Shown here: piece by piece, positions 2,321-33,290 of the stretch | Numbering within the stretch: the stretch's first letter is position 1 | Layout of the letters: every line of letters starts with the position of its first letter | Assembly: GCA_016939335.1 (NCBI GenBank) | Contig: JAFGHC010000015.1 | Span: 1-40,459 of the forward strand | Direction of reading: 5' to 3' | Length of the DNA stretch: 40,459 nt | Source of the DNA: Candidatus Saganbacteria bacterium | GTDB lineage: Bacteria > Margulisbacteria > WOR-1 > O2-12-FULL-45-9 > XYB2-FULL-48-7 | The notes under the pieces: generated by a model | The model's database searches: none | What the model was told of the DNA's origin: nothing | The model's input: the letters and a program-made list of their open reading frames with translations, nothing else | Program-made: the position numbers and the translations under genes

Positions 2321-3373
2321 ATGAAAGAACTCTGGCAAAAAGCGATTTTGTTCGTTCTCATTACGGCGGCGCTCGGCTTCGTCAGCGGGGTCTACTGGCC
2401 GGTCATTTTACCGCTGGTAAGTAAATCGGCGCCCGCCCCCGACGGGGCTAAAAGCTCGCTTATTCCCCCGCCAATCATGCCGGCGCCGTCCCTCAAGAAC
2501 AAGGCCGCGCTTTCCAAGCCGCTGGCGGCGCCTGGCGGCCAAGCCGGCCCGGCAAGCAAGACGGTAACCACAACCGCCTTAACTACGACCACGATCAAGT
2601 CGCGGCCCAAGCCGATTGTTGTGAAGACCGTGCTCACTCCCGCCGCGGCCAAGGCAACTGCCATTATCGCTGCTACTACTACCACTACTACTACCACTAC
2701 CACTACCACGACAACCACCAAGCCAAAACCTGTTGCCGTTGTTGCCGTTAAGGCAGTGGTAATGACCACCACGACTTCGACCACCACGACCACCAGGCCG
2801 AAGCCAACGACGACTACGGCCACGACTTCGACCACCACGACCACCAGGCCGAAGCCAACCACGACTACGGCCACGACTTCGACCACCACGACCACCAGGC
2901 CAAAGCCAACGACAACTACGGCCACGACTTCGACCACCACGACCACCAGGCCGAAGCCAACGACAACTACGGCCACGACTTCGACCACCACGACCACCAG
3001 GCCGAAGCCAACGACAACTACGACCACGACTTCGACCACCACCACGACCATTGACATTTTCCAGATCACCATGCCGTCGAAAGAGAGCAACCTGATCGAT
3101 CCGTTCTCGTTGCGGGTCGGGGCCAGAAAGAGAGAGGAGATCGCGGCCAGCGCCGCCGCCGCGGCCGCCCGGCCGGCCGCCACGAAGCCGGTCGAAAATC
3201 TGGAACTGCAGGGGATCTGGTATGACAGCGAAATGAAGGTCGCGTTCATTTCCGACCAGGCGGTGTCGGTCGGCGGCACGATCTCCGGCTGGAAGCTGGT
3301 TTCTCTCAGCCGCGAGCAGGCGGTCTTGACCAAGGGTTCCGCGACAAAAATCTTGAGATTGGGAGGTAAATAA
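2321..3373 (+). CDS. PilP-like periplasmic protein with long Thr-rich repeat linker
   Basis: The 350-residue product starts with one membrane span (about 7-31) and ends with a small beta domain (about 292-350: LELQGIWYD, VSVGGTISGWKLV) like that of PilP, preceded by a DPFSLR segment. Between them is an extraordinarily threonine-rich linker (about 84-250). It contains a run of Thr and then about 5.5 copies of a 17-residue unit built on TTSTTTTTRPKPTTTTA. Ordinary PilP is about 170-180 residues and is a lipoprotein; here it appears membrane-anchored and roughly doubled in length. The linker probably spans the periplasm to the secretin and could be O-glycosylated; both are inferences. The stop overlaps the next start by 1 base (TAATG). 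Confidence 0.72.
   Translation: MKELWQKAILFVLITAALGFVSGVYWPVILPLVSKSAPAPDGAKSSLIPPPIMPAPSLKNKAALSKPLAAPGGQAGPASKTVTTTALTTTTIKSRPKPIVVKTVLTPAAAKATAIIAATTTTTTTTTTTTTTTKPKPVAVVAVKAVVMTTTTSTTTTTRPKPTTTTATTSTTTTTRPKPTTTTATTSTTTTTRPKPTTTTATTSTTTTTRPKPTTTTATTSTTTTTRPKPTTTTTTTSTTTTTIDIFQITMPSKESNLIDPFSLRVGARKREEIAASAAAAAARPAATKPVENLELQGIWYDSEMKVAFISDQAVSVGGTISGWKLVSLSREQAVLTKGSATKILRLGGK
2771..3052 (+). repeat. 51-bp in-frame tandem repeat encoding a Thr/Pro/Lys linker
   Basis: Five full 51-bp units start at 2771, 2822, 2873, 2924 and 2975, with a half unit to about 3052. Copies differ by a few, mostly third-position, changes. Just upstream (about 2671-2722) is a looser run of ACN threonine codons. 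The number of units is expected to vary by slippage without breaking the frame. Confidence 0.95.
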
Positions 3374-10578: not shown

Positions 10579-10720
10579 AATAACAAATTACAAGCATCAA
10601 ATAACAAACAATACCTAAACAACAAATACTAATTGCCTAAACAGAAGGCCGTTTAAGTCGTTATGATTTGATGAATTGGAATTTGTTTGTTATTTGTAAT
10701 TTGTTATTTGTTGTTTGTTG
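10579..10720. repeat. Inverted pair of heptamer arrays (AATAACA / TTTGTTA)
   Basis: From 10579 to about 10627 the sequence runs in 7-bp units (AATAACA, AATTACA, AGCATCA, AATAACA, AACAATA and so on). From 10686 to 10720 it runs in the complementary units (TTTGTTA, TTTGTAA, TTTGTTA, TTTGTTG, TTTGTTG). The two arms can pair into a hairpin. This fills most of the space between a hypothetical gene and the convergent flavoprotein and might act as a weak bidirectional terminator. Confidence 0.85.
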
Positions 10721-17759: not shown

Positions 17760-20609
17760 ATGACGGAATACAAAAAGACGCTAAACCTGCCGCAGACCGA
17801 CTTCCCGATCCGCGCCAGCGCGGCAAAAGTGGAAGAGGCATGTTTGGGAAGGTGGGCGGCGGAAGATACCTATCATAAGATAGTAGAAAGCAGAAAGTCG
17901 AACGCAGAACGCAGGTACCTTTTACATGACGGCCCCCCCTACCCCAATGGCGACATACATCTGGGGCACGCGCTCAACAAGGTCCTCAAAGATATCATCG
18001 TCAAATACAAATCCATGGCGGGCTATTATTCGCCCTACGTTCCCGGCTGGGACTGCCACGGGCTGCCGATCGAGACGCAGCTGCTGAAGGAGTCGCGAGT
18101 CACGGGTCACGAGTCGCGGGTCGATATCTTAGAATTTAGAAATAAATGCAAGGAGTACGCGCTCAAGTATGTTGATCTGCAGCGCGCCGAATTCAAAAAA
18201 CTCGGTATCTTCGGGGAATGGGACAGGCCCTACCTGACGATCGACCACAGCTACGAAGCCAAGATCATCGAGCTGTTCGGGTCTCTGGCGGAGAAAGGGT
18301 ACGTTTACCGGGGGCTGAAGCCGATCCACTGGTGCCCGACCGACCGGACGGCGCTGGCGGAGGCCGAGCTTGAGTATGAAGACGACAGGTCGCCGTCGAT
18401 CTACGTGAAATTCGAAATTCGAAACCCGAAATCCGAAGTAAATTCGAAAATAAAAAATCCGAATTTATTAACGAACTTGCCTTGGTCTGTAATCGTTTGG
18501 ACTACAACCCCTTGGACATTACCTTCAAATGTTGCTGTCGCTGCAAATGCCGACCTTGAATACGTTTTTCTGATGGTTGAGAGCCTGACCATTCCTACTG
18601 TTGGAAAAAAAGAAGTATTTATCATTGCTGAAGGATTAGTAGAAGATTTTAAAAGTCGACTTTATCATGTTGGGGCTAAATGCCATCCGATCGATAAGAC
18701 TAAAGGAGCTCTGCTTGAAGGTATCTTGGTCAAACATCCATTCATCGACAAAGAAGTCCCCGTCGTCTTAGACAACCTGGTGACACTGGAACAGGGAACC
18801 GGCTTCGTTCACATCGCCCCCGGTCACGGGATCGAAGACTACCAGGTCGGACTGAAATACAAACTGCCGATCATCATGCCGGTAGACGCTAATGGCAATT
18901 TTGACAACACCGTCCCCGATTTTCTTAAAGGCAAGAATTATAACGACGCCAACAAGCTGATCACCGATAAGATGAAAGAGAATGGGGCACTCCTGAAGCA
19001 GGAACTCATCAAACACTCCTACCCCCACTGCTGGCGCTGCAAGAACCCGGTCATCTTCCGCGCCACCGAGCAGTGGTTCGTTTCGGTCAACAAGAATAAT
19101 TTGCGGCAGAACGCCTTAAAGGCCATCGCCGACACGAAGTGGTACCCGGCCTGGGGGGAGACGCGGATCCGCGGCATGGTCGAGACCCGGCCCGACTGGT
19201 GTATTTCCAGACAGAGGTCGTGGGGTGTGCCTATTCCCGCTTTTTATTGTAAGAAATGCGGGAAGCCGTCGCTGACCGGGGTTTTCAACCAAGCGATCCG
19301 GGAACTGGTCCTCAAGGAAGGGACCAACGGTTGGTTCGCCAGAGAAGCGAAAGATATCCTGCCGGCGGGGACCAAGTGCCCGTTCTGCGGCGGGGCGGAA
19401 TTCACGAAAGAGACCGATATCCTCGACGTCTGGTTCGAATCGGGCTCGTCCTTTGCGGCGGTGCTCGATCGGCCGGCGGACCTTTATCTGGAAGGAAGCG
19501 ATCAGCATCGCGGTTGGTTCCAGTCGTCGCTGCTCATCTCCACCGGCTACCAGGGGCGCGCCCCTTTCAACGCCGTCCTGACCCACGGCTTCACGATCGA
19601 CGACAAAGGGAAAAAGATGAGCAAGTCGCTCGGCAACGTCGTTGACCCGCAGGACGTGGTGCAGCGCTACGGCGCCGACGTTCTCCGCCTCTGGGTCGCC
19701 TCGACCGACTTCCGCAACGACATGGCGGCCTCCGAGAAAATTCTTAAGCAGGTGCAGGAAGCTTATACGAAGATCCGCAACACTTGCCGGTTCCTCATAA
19801 GCAATCTCTATGATTATAGTCACGAGTCGCGGGTCGCGGGTCGCGGGTCGCTGCTGGAAATTGATAAATGGATCTTGCTGAAACTCAACCGGCTGGTCGA
19901 GAGAGTCACAAAGGCCTACGATGAGTTCGAGTTCCACGTGGTTTATCACTCGCTCTACGACTTCTGCGTCAACGACCTCTCGGCCCTTTACCTCGACATG
20001 TCGAAGGACCGGCTCTACTGCGGCGGGAAAGATTCGCCCGAGCGCCGCTCGGCCCAATTCGCCATGAACGAGATCCTCTTGACTCTCGTTAAGCTTATGG
20101 CCCCGGTTTTGTCTTTCACTTCGGAAGACATCAATAAATACATTAAATTCGAAATTCGAAATTCGAAATTCGAAGGAAAAGGAGAAAATTCGAAATTCGA
20201 ATTTGTTTCGGATTTCGATATTCGAGATTCGATATTCCTACACGACTTCCCCAAAGCCGACCCGCAGTACCTCGACGCCAAGCTGGAAGAGAGATGGGAA
20301 AAGATCATTGCCTTAAAACTTAAGGTCTACAAGGAACTCGAGGCGGTGCGCGGGCGGAAAGAGCTCGGCTCGTCGATCGAGGCGCTGGTGGAGATCGGGA
20401 CTAAAGGGCGGGAATGGGCCAGGGAAGTCGAAGCGATCCTGCCGCTGGTCTTCATCGTGGCCAAGGTTAAATTAACCGACGGTGAGGCGATCGCCGTCAA
20501 GCGCGCTCCCGGCCAGAAATGCGAACGCTGCTGGATCGTCAAAGAGGATGTCGGCTCGGATAAGCAGCGCCCGACTTTATGCGGCCGGTGCAGTTCTGTA
20601 GTTAGGTAA
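17760..20609 (+). CDS. ileS: Isoleucyl-tRNA synthetase with five repeat insertions
   Basis: IleRS charges tRNA-Ile and edits mischarged valine. The 949-residue product has the HIGH motif (PYPNGDIHLGHA), WDCHGLPIE, the editing-domain entry VWTTTPWTLPSN, the KMSKS loop and a C-terminal zinc site (CERCW and CGRCSS). The ATG at 17760 matches the family N-terminus; an upstream frame reaching into the kinase gene is not real. Five surface loops are made of short-unit repeats in frame: residues about 42-52, 111-121, 217-235, 687-698 and 796-826. Each falls in a variable loop, so catalysis should survive. The last zinc cysteines and the stop border a hexamer array. Confidence 0.97.
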   Translation: MTEYKKTLNLPQTDFPIRASAAKVEEACLGRWAAEDTYHKIVESRKSNAERRYLLHDGPPYPNGDIHLGHALNKVLKDIIVKYKSMAGYYSPYVPGWDCHGLPIETQLLKESRVTGHESRVDILEFRNKCKEYALKYVDLQRAEFKKLGIFGEWDRPYLTIDHSYEAKIIELFGSLAEKGYVYRGLKPIHWCPTDRTALAEAELEYEDDRSPSIYVKFEIRNPKSEVNSKIKNPNLLTNLPWSVIVWTTTPWTLPSNVAVAANADLEYVFLMVESLTIPTVGKKEVFIIAEGLVEDFKSRLYHVGAKCHPIDKTKGALLEGILVKHPFIDKEVPVVLDNLVTLEQGTGFVHIAPGHGIEDYQVGLKYKLPIIMPVDANGNFDNTVPDFLKGKNYNDANKLITDKMKENGALLKQELIKHSYPHCWRCKNPVIFRATEQWFVSVNKNNLRQNALKAIADTKWYPAWGETRIRGMVETRPDWCISRQRSWGVPIPAFYCKKCGKPSLTGVFNQAIRELVLKEGTNGWFAREAKDILPAGTKCPFCGGAEFTKETDILDVWFESGSSFAAVLDRPADLYLEGSDQHRGWFQSSLLISTGYQGRAPFNAVLTHGFTIDDKGKKMSKSLGNVVDPQDVVQRYGADVLRLWVASTDFRNDMAASEKILKQVQEAYTKIRNTCRFLISNLYDYSHESRVAGRGSLLEIDKWILLKLNRLVERVTKAYDEFEFHVVYHSLYDFCVNDLSALYLDMSKDRLYCGGKDSPERRSAQFAMNEILLTLVKLMAPVLSFTSEDINKYIKFEIRNSKFEGKGENSKFEFVSDFDIRDSIFLHDFPKADPQYLDAKLEERWEKIIALKLKVYKELEAVRGRKELGSSIEALVEIGTKGREWAREVEAILPLVFIVAKVKLTDGEAIAVKRAPGQKCERCWIVKEDVGSDKQRPTLCGRCSSVVR
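17883..17915. repeat. Heptamer array inside ileS (1 of 5)
   Basis: Units GTAGAAA, GCAGAAA, GTCGAAC and GCAGAAC run in 7-bp register. They encode ESRKSNAERR just before the LHDGPPY motif, a variable loop in the family. Confidence 0.8.
18090..18123. repeat. Heptamer array inside ileS (2 of 5)
   Basis: Units of the type GAGTCGC, GAGTCAC and GGGTCAC encode ESRVTGHESRV, in the linker after WDCHGLPIE. The same family occurs at 19818-19851 and, reverse complemented, in trpA and leuS. Confidence 0.9.
18408..18465. repeat. Heptamer array inside ileS (3 of 5)
   Basis: AATTCGA-type units (with AACCCGA, AATCCGA variants) encode KFEIRNPKSEVNSKIKNPN in the loop entering the editing domain. The DNA is far more AT-rich than the surrounding gene. 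Confidence 0.9.
19818..19851. repeat. Heptamer array inside ileS (4 of 5)
   Basis: Units AGTCAC, GAGTCGC and three consecutive GGGTCGC encode [11 protein letters not shown] between the NLYDY and LEIDKWIL segments. Confidence 0.9.
20146..20238. repeat. Heptamer array inside ileS (5 of 5)
   Basis: TTCGAAA units (three exact, then TTCGGAT, TTCGATA and TTCGAGA forms) encode about 31 residues beginning KFEIRNSKFEGKG. They lie after the anticodon-binding helices and before the FLHDFPK strand. It is the longest intragenic array. Confidence 0.92.
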
Positions 20610-20721
20610 GGGTATCGATCAGAAGGGTACCGGTCGAGGTCGAGGTAAGGGTATCGGCCCCGGTAAAGGTGCCGGTCGAGGTAAGGGTATCGGTCCCGGT
20701 AAGGGCACCGGTCGAGGTAAG
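20605..20721. repeat. Hexamer (GGTNNN) tandem array at the end of ileS
   Basis: About 18 near-consecutive 6-bp units of the form GGTNNN run from the ileS stop: GGTAAG, GGTATC, GGTACC, GGTCGA, GGTCCC. A larger unit of about 36 bp (GGTCGA GGTAAG GGTATC...) is repeated roughly three times. The first unit supplies the ileS stop codon (GGTAAG contains TAA). No promoter or terminator is seen. Confidence 0.9.
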
Positions 20722-23502: not shown

Positions 23503-23510
23503 GGGAAATG

Positions 23511-23538
23511 ACGAATTACGAATGCCGAATGACGAATG
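23511..23538. repeat. Four-unit heptamer array after ahcY
   Basis: Units ACGAATT, ACGAATG, CCGAATG and ACGAATG follow in exact 7-bp register between ahcY and the DUF5665 gene. Confidence 0.9.
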
Positions 23539-23554
23539 AAGGTAGAGCTATTTA

Positions 23555-27215: not shown

Positions 27216-27390
27216 AAACAAAAGGCGGGGCAAAGGCAAGGAAAGGCTGAAAAGGCAGAAAAGAGAAAAAGGGCGGGAAAGAGAGAAAGGGCGGAAATGA
27301 CAGAGAGGGCGCCTTTTTACTGCCTTTTGCCTCGCCCTTTGTCTTGCCCTCTGTCCCCCCCTCACGTGCCTTTTGTTCCGCCCTTTGTCT
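27216..27390. repeat. Large inverted word repeat (GGGCAAAGG / CCTTTGCCC family)
   Basis: The left half (about 27216-27309) is almost pure purine with words like GGCAAAGG and GGGCGGGAAAG; the right half (about 27310-27390) is the pyrimidine-rich complement (GCCTTTTG, GCCCTTTGTC). It fills the gap between speB and the small membrane gene. It can form a long imperfect hairpin. Confidence 0.8.
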
Positions 27391-29402: not shown

Positions 29403-30857
29403 ATGGCAGAGGAACTTAAAGGGACTTTTATCGATAAAGGCAAGGGCGGGGCCGAGTTTTCCGAAGTCGAAGAACTGATCAGGCAAACCCTGGCCGAGAG
29501 CAAGGAGTTCACTGCCAAGCCGGCGGCCGAAAGCAAGAAGGAAGAATTCCGGGCCACGGCGCTCCCCGCCGCGCCCAAGGCACCTGAGAAAGCGGCGCCG
29601 GCCAAGAGCGCCGCCGCCGCACCGGCCGCGCCGGCCGCACCGGCGGCTTCCGGCTATGAAGCCACCTTCAAGGAATACAAGGCCGGCGATATCGTCAAGG
29701 GCAAGGTCATCAAGGTCGATCCTTCCGGCGTCCTGGTCGATATCAACTATAAGGCCGACGGGCTGATCCTGCCGGAAGAGCTCTCCGACCGCAGCTTCAG
29801 CTCGCCCGAAGAGCTCGTCAAGATCGGCGACGTGATCAGCGTCCAGATCGAGAACATCGAGAACAAAGAGGGTTACGTCGTCCTCTCCAAGAAGAACGCC
29901 GACTACGAGCGGAAATGGAAATTCGCCATGGAAGCCTATCACCATAAGACCTTGCTCGAAGGCAAGGTCCTCCAGGCGCTCAAGGGCGGCCTGGTCGTCG
30001 ATTGCGACGGCATCCGGGGCTTCGTCCCCGCTTCGCAGGTCAGCAAGAGCGCCGAGGAAGCGCTCGATGTTTTCGTCGGCCGGCTCATCCCCCTCAAGGT
30101 GATCGAGGTCAACCGGCGCCAGGGGAAGATCGTTCTCTCGAACCGGCTGGCCGCCGGCGAAAAAGAGCGGAACGAGAACGACAAACTGCTGAATGAGCTC
30201 GAGGTCGGCCAGATCCGCCGCGGTAAGGTCAAGAACCTCAAGCCGTTCGGCGCCTTCGTCGACCTGGGCGGGATCGAAGGGCTGATCCATCTCTCCGAAC
30301 TTTCCTGGAAGCGGGTCAAGCACCCCTCCGAACTGCTCAAGTCGGGCGACGAGATCGACGTCTTCGTCCTTGGCGTCGACCGGGTCAATAAGAAAGTTTC
30401 GCTCGGCCTGAAAGAGCTGCAGCCAGATCCCTGGGCCAACGCGGCCGATTTTTATCGGCCCAAGCAGGTGGTCAAGGCCAAGATCCTCCGCTTCGCCAAG
30501 TTTGGCGCCTTTGCCGAGCTGGAACACGGGCTGGAAGGGCTGATCCACATTTCCGAGCTCTCGCTCCACCCGGTCCAGCAGCCGGGCGACGCGGTCAAGA
30601 TCGGCGACGTCGTCGACGTCAAGGTTCTGCGCGTCCTGCCCGAGGAGCAACGGATCGGCCTCTCGATCCGCGAAGTGCTGCTCGACAAAGAGCGCAAGGC
30701 GGCCCCGCCGAAAGAAGCGAAGGAAACTGCCCCGCCGCCCGCCGAGGAAAAAAAAGTCACCATCGGCGACCTGCTCGCCGAAAAAGAGCGGGCCAAGGCC
30801 GAGAAAGAAGCGGAAGCGGCCGAGCTGGCCGCCGAGGAACCCGAAGAAGTTACATGA
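29403..30857 (+). CDS. rpsA: Ribosomal protein S1 (four S1 domains)
   Basis: The 484-residue product has an unusual N-terminal 90 residues rich in Ala, Lys and Glu, then four S1 RNA-binding domains at about 96-165, 180-245, 258-335 and 348-425, and a charged Lys/Glu/Ala tail. S1 unfolds mRNA leaders on the 30S subunit. Four domains instead of the six of E. coli are common outside Proteobacteria. If many messages here are leaderless, S1 may matter less for their start. Overlaps pyrF by 4 bp (ATGA). Confidence 0.92.
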   Translation: MAEELKGTFIDKGKGGAEFSEVEELIRQTLAESKEFTAKPAAESKKEEFRATALPAAPKAPEKAAPAKSAAAAPAAPAAPAASGYEATFKEYKAGDIVKGKVIKVDPSGVLVDINYKADGLILPEELSDRSFSSPEELVKIGDVISVQIENIENKEGYVVLSKKNADYERKWKFAMEAYHHKTLLEGKVLQALKGGLVVDCDGIRGFVPASQVSKSAEEALDVFVGRLIPLKVIEVNRRQGKIVLSNRLAAGEKERNENDKLLNELEVGQIRRGKVKNLKPFGAFVDLGGIEGLIHLSELSWKRVKHPSELLKSGDEIDVFVLGVDRVNKKVSLGLKELQPDPWANAADFYRPKQVVKAKILRFAKFGAFAELEHGLEGLIHISELSLHPVQQPGDAVKIGDVVDVKVLRVLPEEQRIGLSIREVLLDKERKAAPPKEAKETAPPPAEEKKVTIGDLLAEKERAKAEKEAEAAELAAEEPEEVT

Positions 30858-31633
30858 AATTCGCCGCGCAGCTCGGCCGGGCTGTCGAAAAGAATAACAG
30901 CCTGCTTTGCGTCGGGCTCGACGTCGACCTGAGCCGCCTCCCCCGGCGGTTCCTGGCCGAGAGCGACCCGATCTTCCTCTTCAACAAATACGTCATTGAC
31001 GCGACCAAAGATTTCGTCTGCGCTTATAAGCCGAACAGCGCTTTCTACGAAATGTACGGCATTTACGGCCTGGCCTCGCTGATCAAAACGATCGATTACC
31101 TCCGCGAAACGGCCGGCGTGCCGGTCATTCTCGACGCGAAACGGGGCGACGTCGGCCATTCATCGGAGGCGTACGCCAAGGCGGCATTCGAAACGCTCAA
31201 GGCCGACGCGGTCACGGTCAACCCCTACCTGGGGCACGATTCGGTCCAGCCGTTCCTTGATTACCAGGAAAAAGGGGTTTTTGTCCTTTGCCTGACCAGC
31301 AACGCGGGCAATAAAGATTTCCAGGCGCCCGGCTGCGGCGAACCGCTCTACCTCACCGTCGCCCGCCACGTCAAGGAATGGAACCACTGGGGCAACTGCG
31401 GGCTGGTGGTCGGCGCCACCCGGCCGGAAGAGCTGAAAGCGGTGGTCAAGATCGCCGGCGAGATGCCGCTGCTGATCCCGGGCATCGGCGCGCAGGGAGG
31501 CGACCTGAAAAAATCGGTGAAATACGGCGGGAGAAGGGCGATCATCAACGCTTCGCGCAGCGTCCTCTACGCCAAAGAGCCCGCCGCCGAAGCGAAAAAA
31601 CTGCGGGACGAGATCAATCAATGGCGAAGCTAA
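30854..31633 (+). CDS. pyrF: Orotidine 5'-phosphate decarboxylase (type 2)
   Basis: PyrF makes UMP, the last step of de novo pyrimidine synthesis. The 259-residue product has the catalytic DAKRGDVGHSS, an N-terminal SLLCVGLDVDLSRLP, NPYLGHDSVQPF and the phosphate loop PGIGAQGGDLKKSV. It belongs to the longer type 2 form, of about 260-270 residues. It is translationally coupled to rpsA and overlaps queF by 13 bp. Confidence 0.95.
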   Translation: MKFAAQLGRAVEKNNSLLCVGLDVDLSRLPRRFLAESDPIFLFNKYVIDATKDFVCAYKPNSAFYEMYGIYGLASLIKTIDYLRETAGVPVILDAKRGDVGHSSEAYAKAAFETLKADAVTVNPYLGHDSVQPFLDYQEKGVFVLCLTSNAGNKDFQAPGCGEPLYLTVARHVKEWNHWGNCGLVVGATRPEELKAVVKIAGEMPLLIPGIGAQGGDLKKSVKYGGRRAIINASRSVLYAKEPAAEAKKLRDEINQWRS

Positions 31634-31998
31634 CAAATTCAAAAGTCAAAAGTCAAAAGTCAAAAGTTGAGGTGGTTAAGAATATAAATTCCGACCGGGA
31701 TTATACGGTCAACATTGAGTTTCCGGAGTTTACCTGCGTTTGCCCTAGGACCGGGTTGCCCGACTTTGCAACCATAAAGATCGAATATATCCCCGATAAG
31801 TTGATAGTTGAATTGAAATCACTGAAGCTGTATTTCGTTTCCTTCCGCAACATCGGGACCTTCCATGAAGACGTGGTTAATAAAATCTTGGATGACCTGG
31901 CCGCCGCTTGTCAGCCGAGGCAAATGAAGATCGTCGGCGAGTTCAGCGTGCGCGGCGGGATCAAGACGACTGTGTCGGCTTCATACCCTAACCCCTGA
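31621..31998 (+). CDS. queF: NADPH-dependent 7-cyano-7-deazaguanine reductase
   Basis: QueF reduces preQ0 to preQ1 in queuosine synthesis. From ATG 31621 (inside pyrF) the product is 125 residues: FTCVCPRTGLPDFATI holds the catalytic Cys41 and Asp48, and VELKSLKLYFVSFRN with FHEDVVNKI is the substrate region (Glu64, His82). It is the short single-domain form. The first 16 residues include SKVKSQKSKV, encoded by a heptamer repeat; an alternative start after it is not obvious. The other queuosine genes are not here. Confidence 0.94.
   Translation: MAKLTNSKVKSQKSKVEVVKNINSDRDYTVNIEFPEFTCVCPRTGLPDFATIKIEYIPDKLIVELKSLKLYFVSFRNIGTFHEDVVNKILDDLAAACQPRQMKIVGEFSVRGGIKTTVSASYPNP
31641..31668. repeat. 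Four-unit heptamer array inside queF
   Basis: AAAAGTC occurs three times and AAAAGTT once in exact register, extending the N-terminus of QueF. Confidence 0.92.
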
Positions 31999-31999
31999 T

Positions 32000-32539
32000 C
32001 TAATATGTGGAATCAGCCTGCTGGAGTATTTTCAGCTCGATCGGGTCTTTTTCCATGACCGGTTCGACTCGCGGGTCATGCTTTTTAATGATAGAAAGGA
32101 ATTCCCCGGAAACGCCGAGCCGGGCCAGCATCTCCGCGCCGACCGCTCCGTGGTGCTTGTGGATATAGAACCGGCGCAGTAGTTGACGCGTCCTTCCCTG
32201 TTCAGCCAGCCAGTCATAAAGACCCGGCAGAAAATATCTTAAGATGACCAAAAAAGACTTCGACAGGACCGAGTTCCGCTCCGCGACCTTGCCGATATCG
32301 TGGAGCAGGCCGAGTTTCACGAGTTTCTGCGGGTCAAGCTCGGGATTATAGAGCGCCAGATCGAGCATCTTCCTGGCCACGACCGCCGCGTGTTTCTTCT
32401 CAAAGCCGGGCAATTGATTGAAGAGCGCCAGCTCCTCTCCCCGCAGATAACGGCGGGCGAACGCCTCATCGGCTTTCTCGTAACGGGCGAACATGCCGAA
32501 GTAGAATTGTTTCAGCCGGTAATTAAGATTATTAAGCAT
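32000..32539 (-). CDS. HD-domain phosphohydrolase-like protein
   Basis: The 179-residue product has a single HD domain: HAAVVARKMLDLAL, then LLHDIGKVAERNS with the metal-binding HD pair, HKHHGAVGAEML and a late HDPR. HD proteins of this size often hydrolyse nucleotides or nucleotide second messengers; the substrate is unknown. Its start overlaps the end of trpA by 8 bp, so it shares the trpBA transcript, a link I cannot explain. It ends 1 nt from the convergent queF stop. Confidence 0.82.
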   Translation of the reverse strand: MLNNLNYRLKQFYFGMFARYEKADEAFARRYLRGEELALFNQLPGFEKKHAAVVARKMLDLALYNPELDPQKLVKLGLLHDIGKVAERNSVLSKSFLVILRYFLPGLYDWLAEQGRTRQLLRRFYIHKHHGAVGAEMLARLGVSGEFLSIIKKHDPRVEPVMEKDPIELKILQQADSTY

Positions 32540-33290
32540 CGAGCGCTTGGCGAAGCGCGGCGGCCAGCCTGACGGCGGGACCGGTCTTTTTCTTCGCGAT
32601 CAGGTCAACCAGCGCCGAACCGACGATTACTCCGTCGGCGACCTTGGCCAGGGCGGCGGCCTGCGCCGGGGTCGAAATGCCGAACCCGACGGCGACCGGC
32701 AATTTAGTATGTTTCCTGATCCTGGCGACCAGGGAAGACAGGTCGCCGCCCAGCGTTTCCCGCTGGCCGGTGATCCCCGCCACCGAGATCAAATAAATGA
32801 ACCCCGAGGCCTGCCCGACCGACCGTTTGATCCGCTCCTCCGTGCTCGTCGGGGCGACAAAAGCGATCCTCTCGACCCGCGACCCGCGACCCGTGACCAG
32901 TGACTCTTCCGGCGGCAGGTCAGGTATCACCACCCCGTCCACCCCGAACTTTTCGCAGTCCTGATAAAACTTCTCCTCTCCGTATTTCACGATCAGGTTG
33001 TAGGCCGGCATGAAGCAGATCGGAACGGCGCTCGTCTTCCTGACCCTGGCCACCAGCTTGAAAACCGCGGCCAGCGAAACGTTCTTTTTCAGCGCGCGCT
33101 GGTGCGACGCCTGGATGACCGGCCCGTCGGCCAGCGGGTCGGAGAACGGGATGCCGAGCTCAATGATATCCGCCCCCGCCTGTTCCAGTTCATAGACAAG
33201 TTTTTCGGTGGCCGGGAGCGACGGGTCGCCGGCGGTGATATAGGTGATCAAGGTTTTTCTCCGCTTAAAGGTTTTTGATAGATTCGACAT
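32532..33290 (-). CDS. trpA: Tryptophan synthase alpha chain
   Basis: TrpA splits indole-3-glycerol phosphate and passes indole to TrpB. The 252-residue product has the catalytic Glu/Asp segments [17 protein letters not shown] and [14 protein letters not shown] and the phosphate site VGFGIST. It overlaps trpB by 26 bp, supporting balanced translation. A heptamer array adds [10 protein letters not shown] in the loop after the second catalytic Asp. Confidence 0.96.
32871..32906. repeat. Heptamer array inside trpA
   Basis: Read on the minus strand, GAGTCAC, TGGTCAC, GGGTCGC and GGGTCGC units encode VTGRGSRVE. Same family as two arrays in ileS and one in leuS. Confidence 0.88.

Follow-up and report, generated by a model that had tools for sequence, protein, structure and literature searches.

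The window analysed here is a stretch of 40,459 nucleotides (contig 30) from a 1.53-Mb genome whose closest named relatives are metagenome-assembled genomes (MAGs) of Candidatus Saganbacteria, WOR-1 and Margulisiibacteriota. We refer to this genome as G000, and other G-numbers denote the genomes with which it was compared. The window contains ileS, the essential gene for isoleucyl-tRNA synthetase (IleRS), and several arrays of heptamer repeats lying inside and outside coding sequence (Table 1). The ileS product scores 915.8 bits against TIGR00392 (cut-off 621), its top sequence match in the PDB is the IleRS 8c9e (E = 1.9e-266), and its AlphaFold model (mean pLDDT 89, pTM 0.85) matches the solved IleRS structures 8c9e/8c9f with TM scores of 0.89-0.92. 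As originally predicted, the reading frame and motifs are undamaged: the gene is one open frame, and both the HIGH and the KMSKS regions are present and intact.

Table 1. Coordinates of ileS, its loops and the heptamer arrays of the window
Feature	Position	Strand	Evidence
ileS, isoleucyl-tRNA synthetase, 949 aa	17760..20609	+	TIGR00392, PDB sequence match, structural model
A1, AGAAAGC-type heptamer array, residues 42-52 (VESRKSNAERR)	17885..17914	+	Tandem Repeats Finder, period 7
A2, GTCRCGR array, residues 111-122 (ESRVTGHESRVD)	18090..18124	+	Tandem Repeats Finder, period 7
A3, AAATYCG array, residues 216-230	18407..18447	+	Tandem Repeats Finder, period 7
Sixth ileS loop, residues ~265-283, +9 residues, no array detectable in G000	18552..18610	+	
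A4, GTCRCGR array, residues 687-698	19818..19851	+	Tandem Repeats Finder, period 7
A5, AAATTCG array then second, partly reverse-oriented array, residues 796-827	20145..20238	+	Tandem Repeats Finder
Intergenic heptamer array, TTTGTTA type	10683..10720		Tandem Repeats Finder
Intergenic heptamer array, AATGACG type	23507..23539		Tandem Repeats Finder
AAAAGTC array, immediately 3' of the stop of ORF 30854-31633	31635..31667	+	Tandem Repeats Finder
CGACCCG (GTCGCGG) array, in frame inside ORF 32532-33290	32873..32904	-	Tandem Repeats Finder

Tandem Repeats Finder returned period-7 arrays at all five ileS places, drawn from three unit families (AGAAAGC at A1, GTCRCGR at A2 and A4, AAATYCG at A3 and A5). 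The intervals it gave are 17885-17914 for A1, 18090-18123 for A2, 18407-18437 for A3 and 19826-19851 for A4, with the two halves of A5 at 20145-20174 and 20186-20237. We also used a synonymous null in which the protein was held fixed and synonymous codons were redrawn according to the codon usage of the genome. Under this null P was 4e-4 for A1, 2.5e-4 for A2, 0.012 for A3 and at most 5e-5 for A4, while the left and right halves of A5 gave 1e-4 and at most 5e-5, respectively. At our loose threshold the whole gene holds six array segments against 0.24 expected. The two analyses agree with the original prediction of heptamer arrays from three families at these five places. We noted that A3 is weak by itself in G000 and strong in relatives. 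The core of A2 consists of GTC plus four nucleotides, repeated four times and followed by GTC, making 31 nt, and the A1 unit family was also observed in ileS of G003 and G005. Elsewhere in the window, the product of ORF 32532-33290, which carries an array in frame, reads as TrpA.

The peptides ESRV and FEIRNSK, which are shared between array loops, require no protein-level explanation. Since three heptamers make seven codons, an array read in any frame of one strand yields an identical cyclic seven-residue peptide, and both shared peptides are therefore explained without peptide selection.

A1 is located just N-terminal of the HIGH motif of IleRS, and A2 comes after the HGLPIE region; A3 sits where the CP1 editing domain begins, A4 sits in a loop where the anticodon-binding domain begins, and A5 is deeper in that domain. 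The AlphaFold model shows coil of reduced confidence at A2 and A4 and over most of A3 and A5. Part of A1 is helical, and the start of A5 extends a helix; residues 804-820 have pLDDT below 50, and residues 801-820 are coil with pLDDT 43-46. Because these loops are coil, low in pLDDT and tolerant of length change, we infer that they lie at the protein surface. In a 44-row IleRS alignment V216, at the edge of A3, is the sole invariant residue inside any array. The alignment and the model together bear out the earlier suggestion that the arrays occupy loops that are variable in the family.

Loop length and the age of each array

The arrays had been described as five insertions, but three of them alter loop length by only 0-2 residues. 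We used as reference the median loop length of 28 IleRS from other phyla, against which the loops of G000 measure 17 vs 15 residues at A1, 21 vs 19 at A2 and 19 vs 19 at A4. The values for the remaining two are 27 vs 18.5 at A3 and 36 vs 16 at A5. A5 (net +20 residues) is the only clear private insertion, and A3 (~+8 residues) is old, being common to other genera and to families of the class.

Near-identical A3 array DNA is present in G017, G018 and G011 (another family), and variants of it in G003, G008, G005, G009, G014 and G025. The original prediction had named relatives with the same residues and no repeat-like DNA as a sign of chance coding. This refuting case does not hold overall: for A3, relatives sharing the residues mostly have the repeat DNA too. 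We infer that A3 has been inherited by descent for long enough to have become part of the normal loop. Horizontal import of A3 was considered and rejected, as sliding DNA identity has no unusual peak around the array. A tree of ileS with the loops removed broadly matches taxonomy, with one f2 row grouping with f1/f8. Both A5 and A3 could have gained a function, the evidence bearing on this being their codons and their length.

The same loops filled by different heptamers

The IleRS alignment of relatives comprised 30 sequences, G000 included. With a strict threshold we identified 28 period-7 segments in the ileS genes of 19 of these 30 genomes, and 0-2 segments at other non-harmonic periods. 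A looser threshold gave 36 segments in 22 of the 30 genomes, all 36 of them within six loops; these loops make up ~12% of IleRS and their limits were drawn from the same data, so that the clustering is a description and not a test, the independent check on it being the comparison with ValRS and ClpC. The sixth loop holds heptamer arrays in G010, G011, G014 and G016. Arrays at A4 were found in 10 genomes and comprise 9 different units, those at A5 in 7 genomes comprise 7 units, and G003 and G008, the sisters of G000 in the ileS tree, differ from it in content at A4 and A5. In the ileS genes of other phyla we detected three period-7 segments in 46 genes, all three at the A3 position.

The ileS gene is not a special case: valS behaves alike and arrays occur genome-wide. 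The valS gene of G000 has two arrays, and 30 valS genes together gave 31 segments, clustered in a few loops that include the CP1 loop (the counterpart of A3) and the zinc-knuckle loop, WYC-[array]-C. The zinc-knuckle cysteines of ValRS are one residue apart when the loop is empty and 11 or more apart when it is filled, and both empty and filled states are present at the CP1 and zinc-knuckle loops. For clpC, a gene of similar length, we obtained zero segments in 84 kb. With equal threshold the density of segments is 45 per 100 kb in ileS vs a background of 8 per 100 kb. Over time, one small set of loops in IleRS and ValRS has come to hold heptamers that differ between genera.

Period, placement and length across genomes

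For G000 we sampled stretches amounting to 440 kb of the 1.53-Mb genome and counted 39 period-7 segments, with 0-3 at other non-harmonic periods and 0 in a resampled control. Class-wide, 1.24 Mb gave 72 period-7 segments vs 2-7 at other periods, where 2 of the counts at every period are runs of N in G003, which we dropped from later counts. The arrays follow a strict 7-nt ruler that is independent of their sequence.

Our census of stretches from G000 and 16 more Saganbacteria genomes (2.04 Mb) yielded 142 arrays, of which 73 fall within a gene, 42 at the edge of one and 27 in intergenic DNA, according to gene calls made by a simple codon-usage script and not by an annotation pipeline. With 89% of the census DNA coding, array density is ~8-fold lower inside genes. 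Where an in-gene array has a consensus stop on one strand only, the stop-free orientation prevails by 29 to 8. This deficit and this strand preference agree with the original claim that selection has filtered the arrays, and those within genes are tolerated where the loop is length-tolerant, the strand is stop-free and the frame is kept.

The 142 arrays fall into 69 exact unit classes, where independent units would give ~131. The largest class holds 12 arrays, a size that random trials, with 5 at most, never reached. AAATTCG accounts for 8 census arrays, found only in G000, and AACCCAG for 4, found only in G012. A whole-genome pattern search for AAATTCG returned 46 matches in G000, far ahead of the others; arrays of this unit occur in 11 of the 31 genomes of the class and in none of the 26 outside it. 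Each genome has its own amplified units. Considering arrays that lie close together, 8 of 14 pairs are nearer to the inverted than to the direct orientation. A5 is itself a partly inverted array pair.

Array length is also uniform. In a census able to detect perfect arrays of at least 20 nt, 87 of the 142 measure 30-34 nt, with a sharp peak at 31 nt, that is, four units plus about three bases (~4.4 units). Arrays of 30-34 nt make up 47 of the 73 inside genes and 40 of the 69 outside, and longer ones (>34 nt) were observed 16 times among the 69 outside genes and 7 times among the 73 inside. A frequent layout has five three-base boxes and four four-base spacers, for example GTC(RCGR-GTC)x4 at A2 and A4. 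A doubling (ABAB) origin of the four units is not supported, as unit 1 is no closer to unit 3, or unit 2 to unit 4, than adjacent units are to each other. We rejected selection for G-quadruplexes as the cause of the four-unit length, since the G-quadruplex pattern is present in only 9 of the 142 arrays.

Origin of the arrays

We consider it probable that the ileS arrays are part of a genome-wide set of dispersed heptanucleotide repeats of the STRR type and are not a feature of IleRS. A single event linked to replication, either slippage or the copying of a template, would give rise to an array of about four and a half units, and the unit would often be one that the genome already has in numbers. 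The array would then decay through point mutation, while selection would remove arrays that break the protein, and the outcome in IleRS would be neutral surface-loop sequence without a function of its own. A simple slippage step at birth may be wrong, because memoryless slippage predicts more 3-unit than 4-unit arrays. We think it unlikely that arrays are made at full size, as X3-(Y4-X3)x4, by dedicated copying or terminal-addition machinery with a 7-nt ruler, and thereafter spread in the manner of a minimal mobile element for which protein loops serve as safe sites, in Saganbacteria and perhaps also in Xanthomonas and Nostoc. The data do not support a reverse transcriptase as the maker: none was found in the array-bearing genomes G003, G005, G006, G010 and G018, although G000 has one. 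Nor do they support loss of mismatch repair as the cause; MutS, the one component looked at, is encoded by an open gene in G000 and in most of its relatives.

An unlikely alternative is that a resident 7-mer simply slips at its own locus during replication, without spread between loci. Slippage has been proposed for heptamer repeats in general, with 7 nt as the length of polymerase contact (Mrazek et al. 2007, related in PMC4679880). We observed by eye that some A5 loops appear to have grown from host codons, such as GCGTTAC in G018, and a unit resembles its immediate neighbour slightly more than the unit two positions away. However, exact units recur within one genome far above chance, array length peaks at 4.4 units, 3-unit arrays being few even in DNA outside genes, and unit 4 differs from unit 1 no more than unit 3 does. 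The empty zinc-knuckle sites of ValRS have, by eye, no obvious seed for local slippage.

It is very unlikely, in our judgement, that the arrays serve a function, as RNA hairpins, protein-binding sites or regulatory sites, and are located in genes by coincidence. An imperfect hairpin is possible in A5 RNA, whose fold of -31.2 kcal/mol is better than shuffles (z -2.26), and the tendency of close pairs to inverted orientation and the enrichment of arrays outside genes could be read in the same way. However, the RNA of A1-A4 is not clearly better folded than shuffles (z 0 to -1.7), the units change from genus to genus at one loop, and G-quadruplex patterns are as scarce as noted above. The degenerate state of the arrays and their position in the middle of genes for housekeeping enzymes also speak against phase-variation contingency switching of these genes.

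We give very little credence to adaptive new loops, that is, to peptides selected because they alter the enzyme. A peptide related to A3 does occur in many genera and several families, as selection of this kind might produce, but sister genera fill one loop with different peptides, A4 remains near standard length in most genera whichever peptide fills it, and empty ValRS loops coexist with filled ones.

Chance coding, in which the DNA pattern simply follows from repetitive peptides that the loops happen to have, has a negligible probability: the modest P of A3 alone in G000 would suit it, but the whole-gene excess under synonymous resampling, the excess at period 7 alone and the like arrays between genes do not. 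An assembly or binning artefact can be dismissed with similar assurance, for although the genomes were assembled from metagenomes, MAGs of many independent projects have arrays in these same loops and the frames are kept.

Heptamer repeats are over-represented in scattered bacteria, for reasons that are not settled (PMC4692102, PMC4679880). Heptanucleotide STRR and long simple sequence repeats have been described in cyanobacteria and in bacteria of other groups (Mrazek et al. 2007, related in PMC4679880), among them the heptanucleotides of Calothrix (as described in PMC4692102), and Saganbacteria are close phylogenetic neighbours of the Cyanobacteria (PMC6349859). In the open-access literature we found no relevant report of heptamers in Saganbacteria or of in-frame heptamers in MAGs. 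We regard the arrays as repeats of an already known kind that turn up in a new lineage, with the uniform length and the recurrent colonisation of loops being new as far as we found. A clade with many genomes makes a clean test bed, in which a single ruler and a fixed length apply to many sequences and the safe sites are marked, and the comparison of empty with filled loops opens the origin and spread of a little-understood bacterial repeat to study. The arrays also reveal how much sequence of no evident function an aminoacyl-tRNA synthetase will accept, and at which positions.

The Saganbacteria arrays share with the STRR an exact 7-nt unit far above other unit lengths and several dispersed unit families per genome with degenerate copies. 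They are unlike the STRR in that they return to the same aminoacyl-tRNA synthetase loops at a nearly fixed length of ~31 nt. About half (73 of 142) lie wholly in genes, which would also set them apart, and their density is ~8-fold higher outside. For the GGGAATC and GGGGA(C/T)T repeats of Xanthomonas and Nostoc, the four-unit preference in Xanthomonas has been tied to G-quadruplexes (PMC4692102). The same preference is seen in Saganbacteria, yet it persists there with few arrays having a G4 pattern, and this fixed length without G-tracts argues against the G-quadruplex as a general rule for four units. The TAACTGA repeats of Beggiatoaceae, Cyanobacteria and Bacteroidetes lie mostly just upstream of start codons, where translational regulation has been proposed (PMC4679880). 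They too have a 7-nt unit, strand-dependent stops that limit placement in genes, and a distribution over distant lineages, but they consist of one unit as opposed to the dozens in Saganbacteria; TAACTGA is not among the ileS units or the 15 commonest census units.

Heptanucleotide repeats also occupy the P6b loop of the Nostoc tRNA-Leu intron (PMC3488679). They are likewise degenerate, sit in a length-variable loop of a working molecule and fold as a hairpin (here, A5), and other inserted elements join in as well; they differ in occupying the RNA loop of one intron and not protein loops of several genes. Finally, the Rickettsia palindromic elements are palindromes of ~150 bp that encode a conserved peptide (PMC10969869). 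Like the Saganbacteria arrays they form several families and occupy unrelated genes in frame, in a manner that protein structure seems to accommodate. Unlike them, the arrays are 31-nt direct repeats of many unrelated units, with only A5 a partial palindrome, and they resemble the Rickettsia elements within genes but are not members of that group.

Unit number in period-8 and heptamer arrays

The period-8 arrays, of the CCTTGATN type, are 36 nt long and contain about four and a half units, as the heptamer arrays do. These arrays suggest that the fixed quantity is the number of units, rather than the overall length of the array.

Heptamer arrays also fill the A3 loop of IleRS, at the start of the CP1 editing domain, in bacteria of other phyla (L085, L105 and L109). 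In ValRS, heptamer arrays of the valS loci L246-L275 lie between two cysteines of a zinc knuckle, giving WYC-[11 or more residues]-C, and an insertion into this loop might well be expected to disturb metal binding.

Palindromic elements in IleRS loops

We also noted that in relatives (loci L032, L034, L035, L038, L045 and L047) the IleRS loops A3 and A4, the latter at the start of the anticodon-binding domain, carry short in-frame elements other than heptamers. As judged by eye, these are mostly hairpins of ∼30 nt, so that in-frame insertions in these loops include a palindromic class in addition to the heptamer arrays.

Other tandem repeats in the window

The array that follows ileS is GC-rich, has a period that is a multiple of 3 and differs from the heptamers. 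The 51-bp repeat encodes a Thr-rich stretch of an ORF whose surrounding gene cluster, from reading of the genes only, looks like a pilus assembly cluster. The 18-bp and 12-bp repeats adjoin each other, are opposite in strand composition and fall in none of the listed ORFs (those of at least 100 aa).

Repeat arrays and hairpin elements, with positions in the window or in the named loci of compared genomes
Feature	Location	Remarks
Period-8 arrays	L157:17312, L159:11992, L159:15915 (genome G002), L172:7806 (genome G023)	
Heptamer arrays GTTCAGC, GATCACC, GTTCACC	L085, L105, L109	ileS near nt 645-690
∼30-nt hairpin GGAAACCTGCGACTAAACGTCGCGGTTTCC	L035, ileS loop A3/A4	in frame
∼30-nt hairpin GGAAACCGCCCCGGTTTAACGGGGCAGGTTTCC	L045, ileS loop A3/A4	in frame
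18/36-bp unit array (GGTAAGGGTATCGGTCCC...)	window 20632-20721	immediately 3' of ileS stop codon
51-bp repeat, five and a half copies, coding RPKPTTTTATTSTTTTT	window 2769-3050	within ORF 2321-3373
18-bp and 12-bp tandem repeats	window 27249-27311 and 27321-27355
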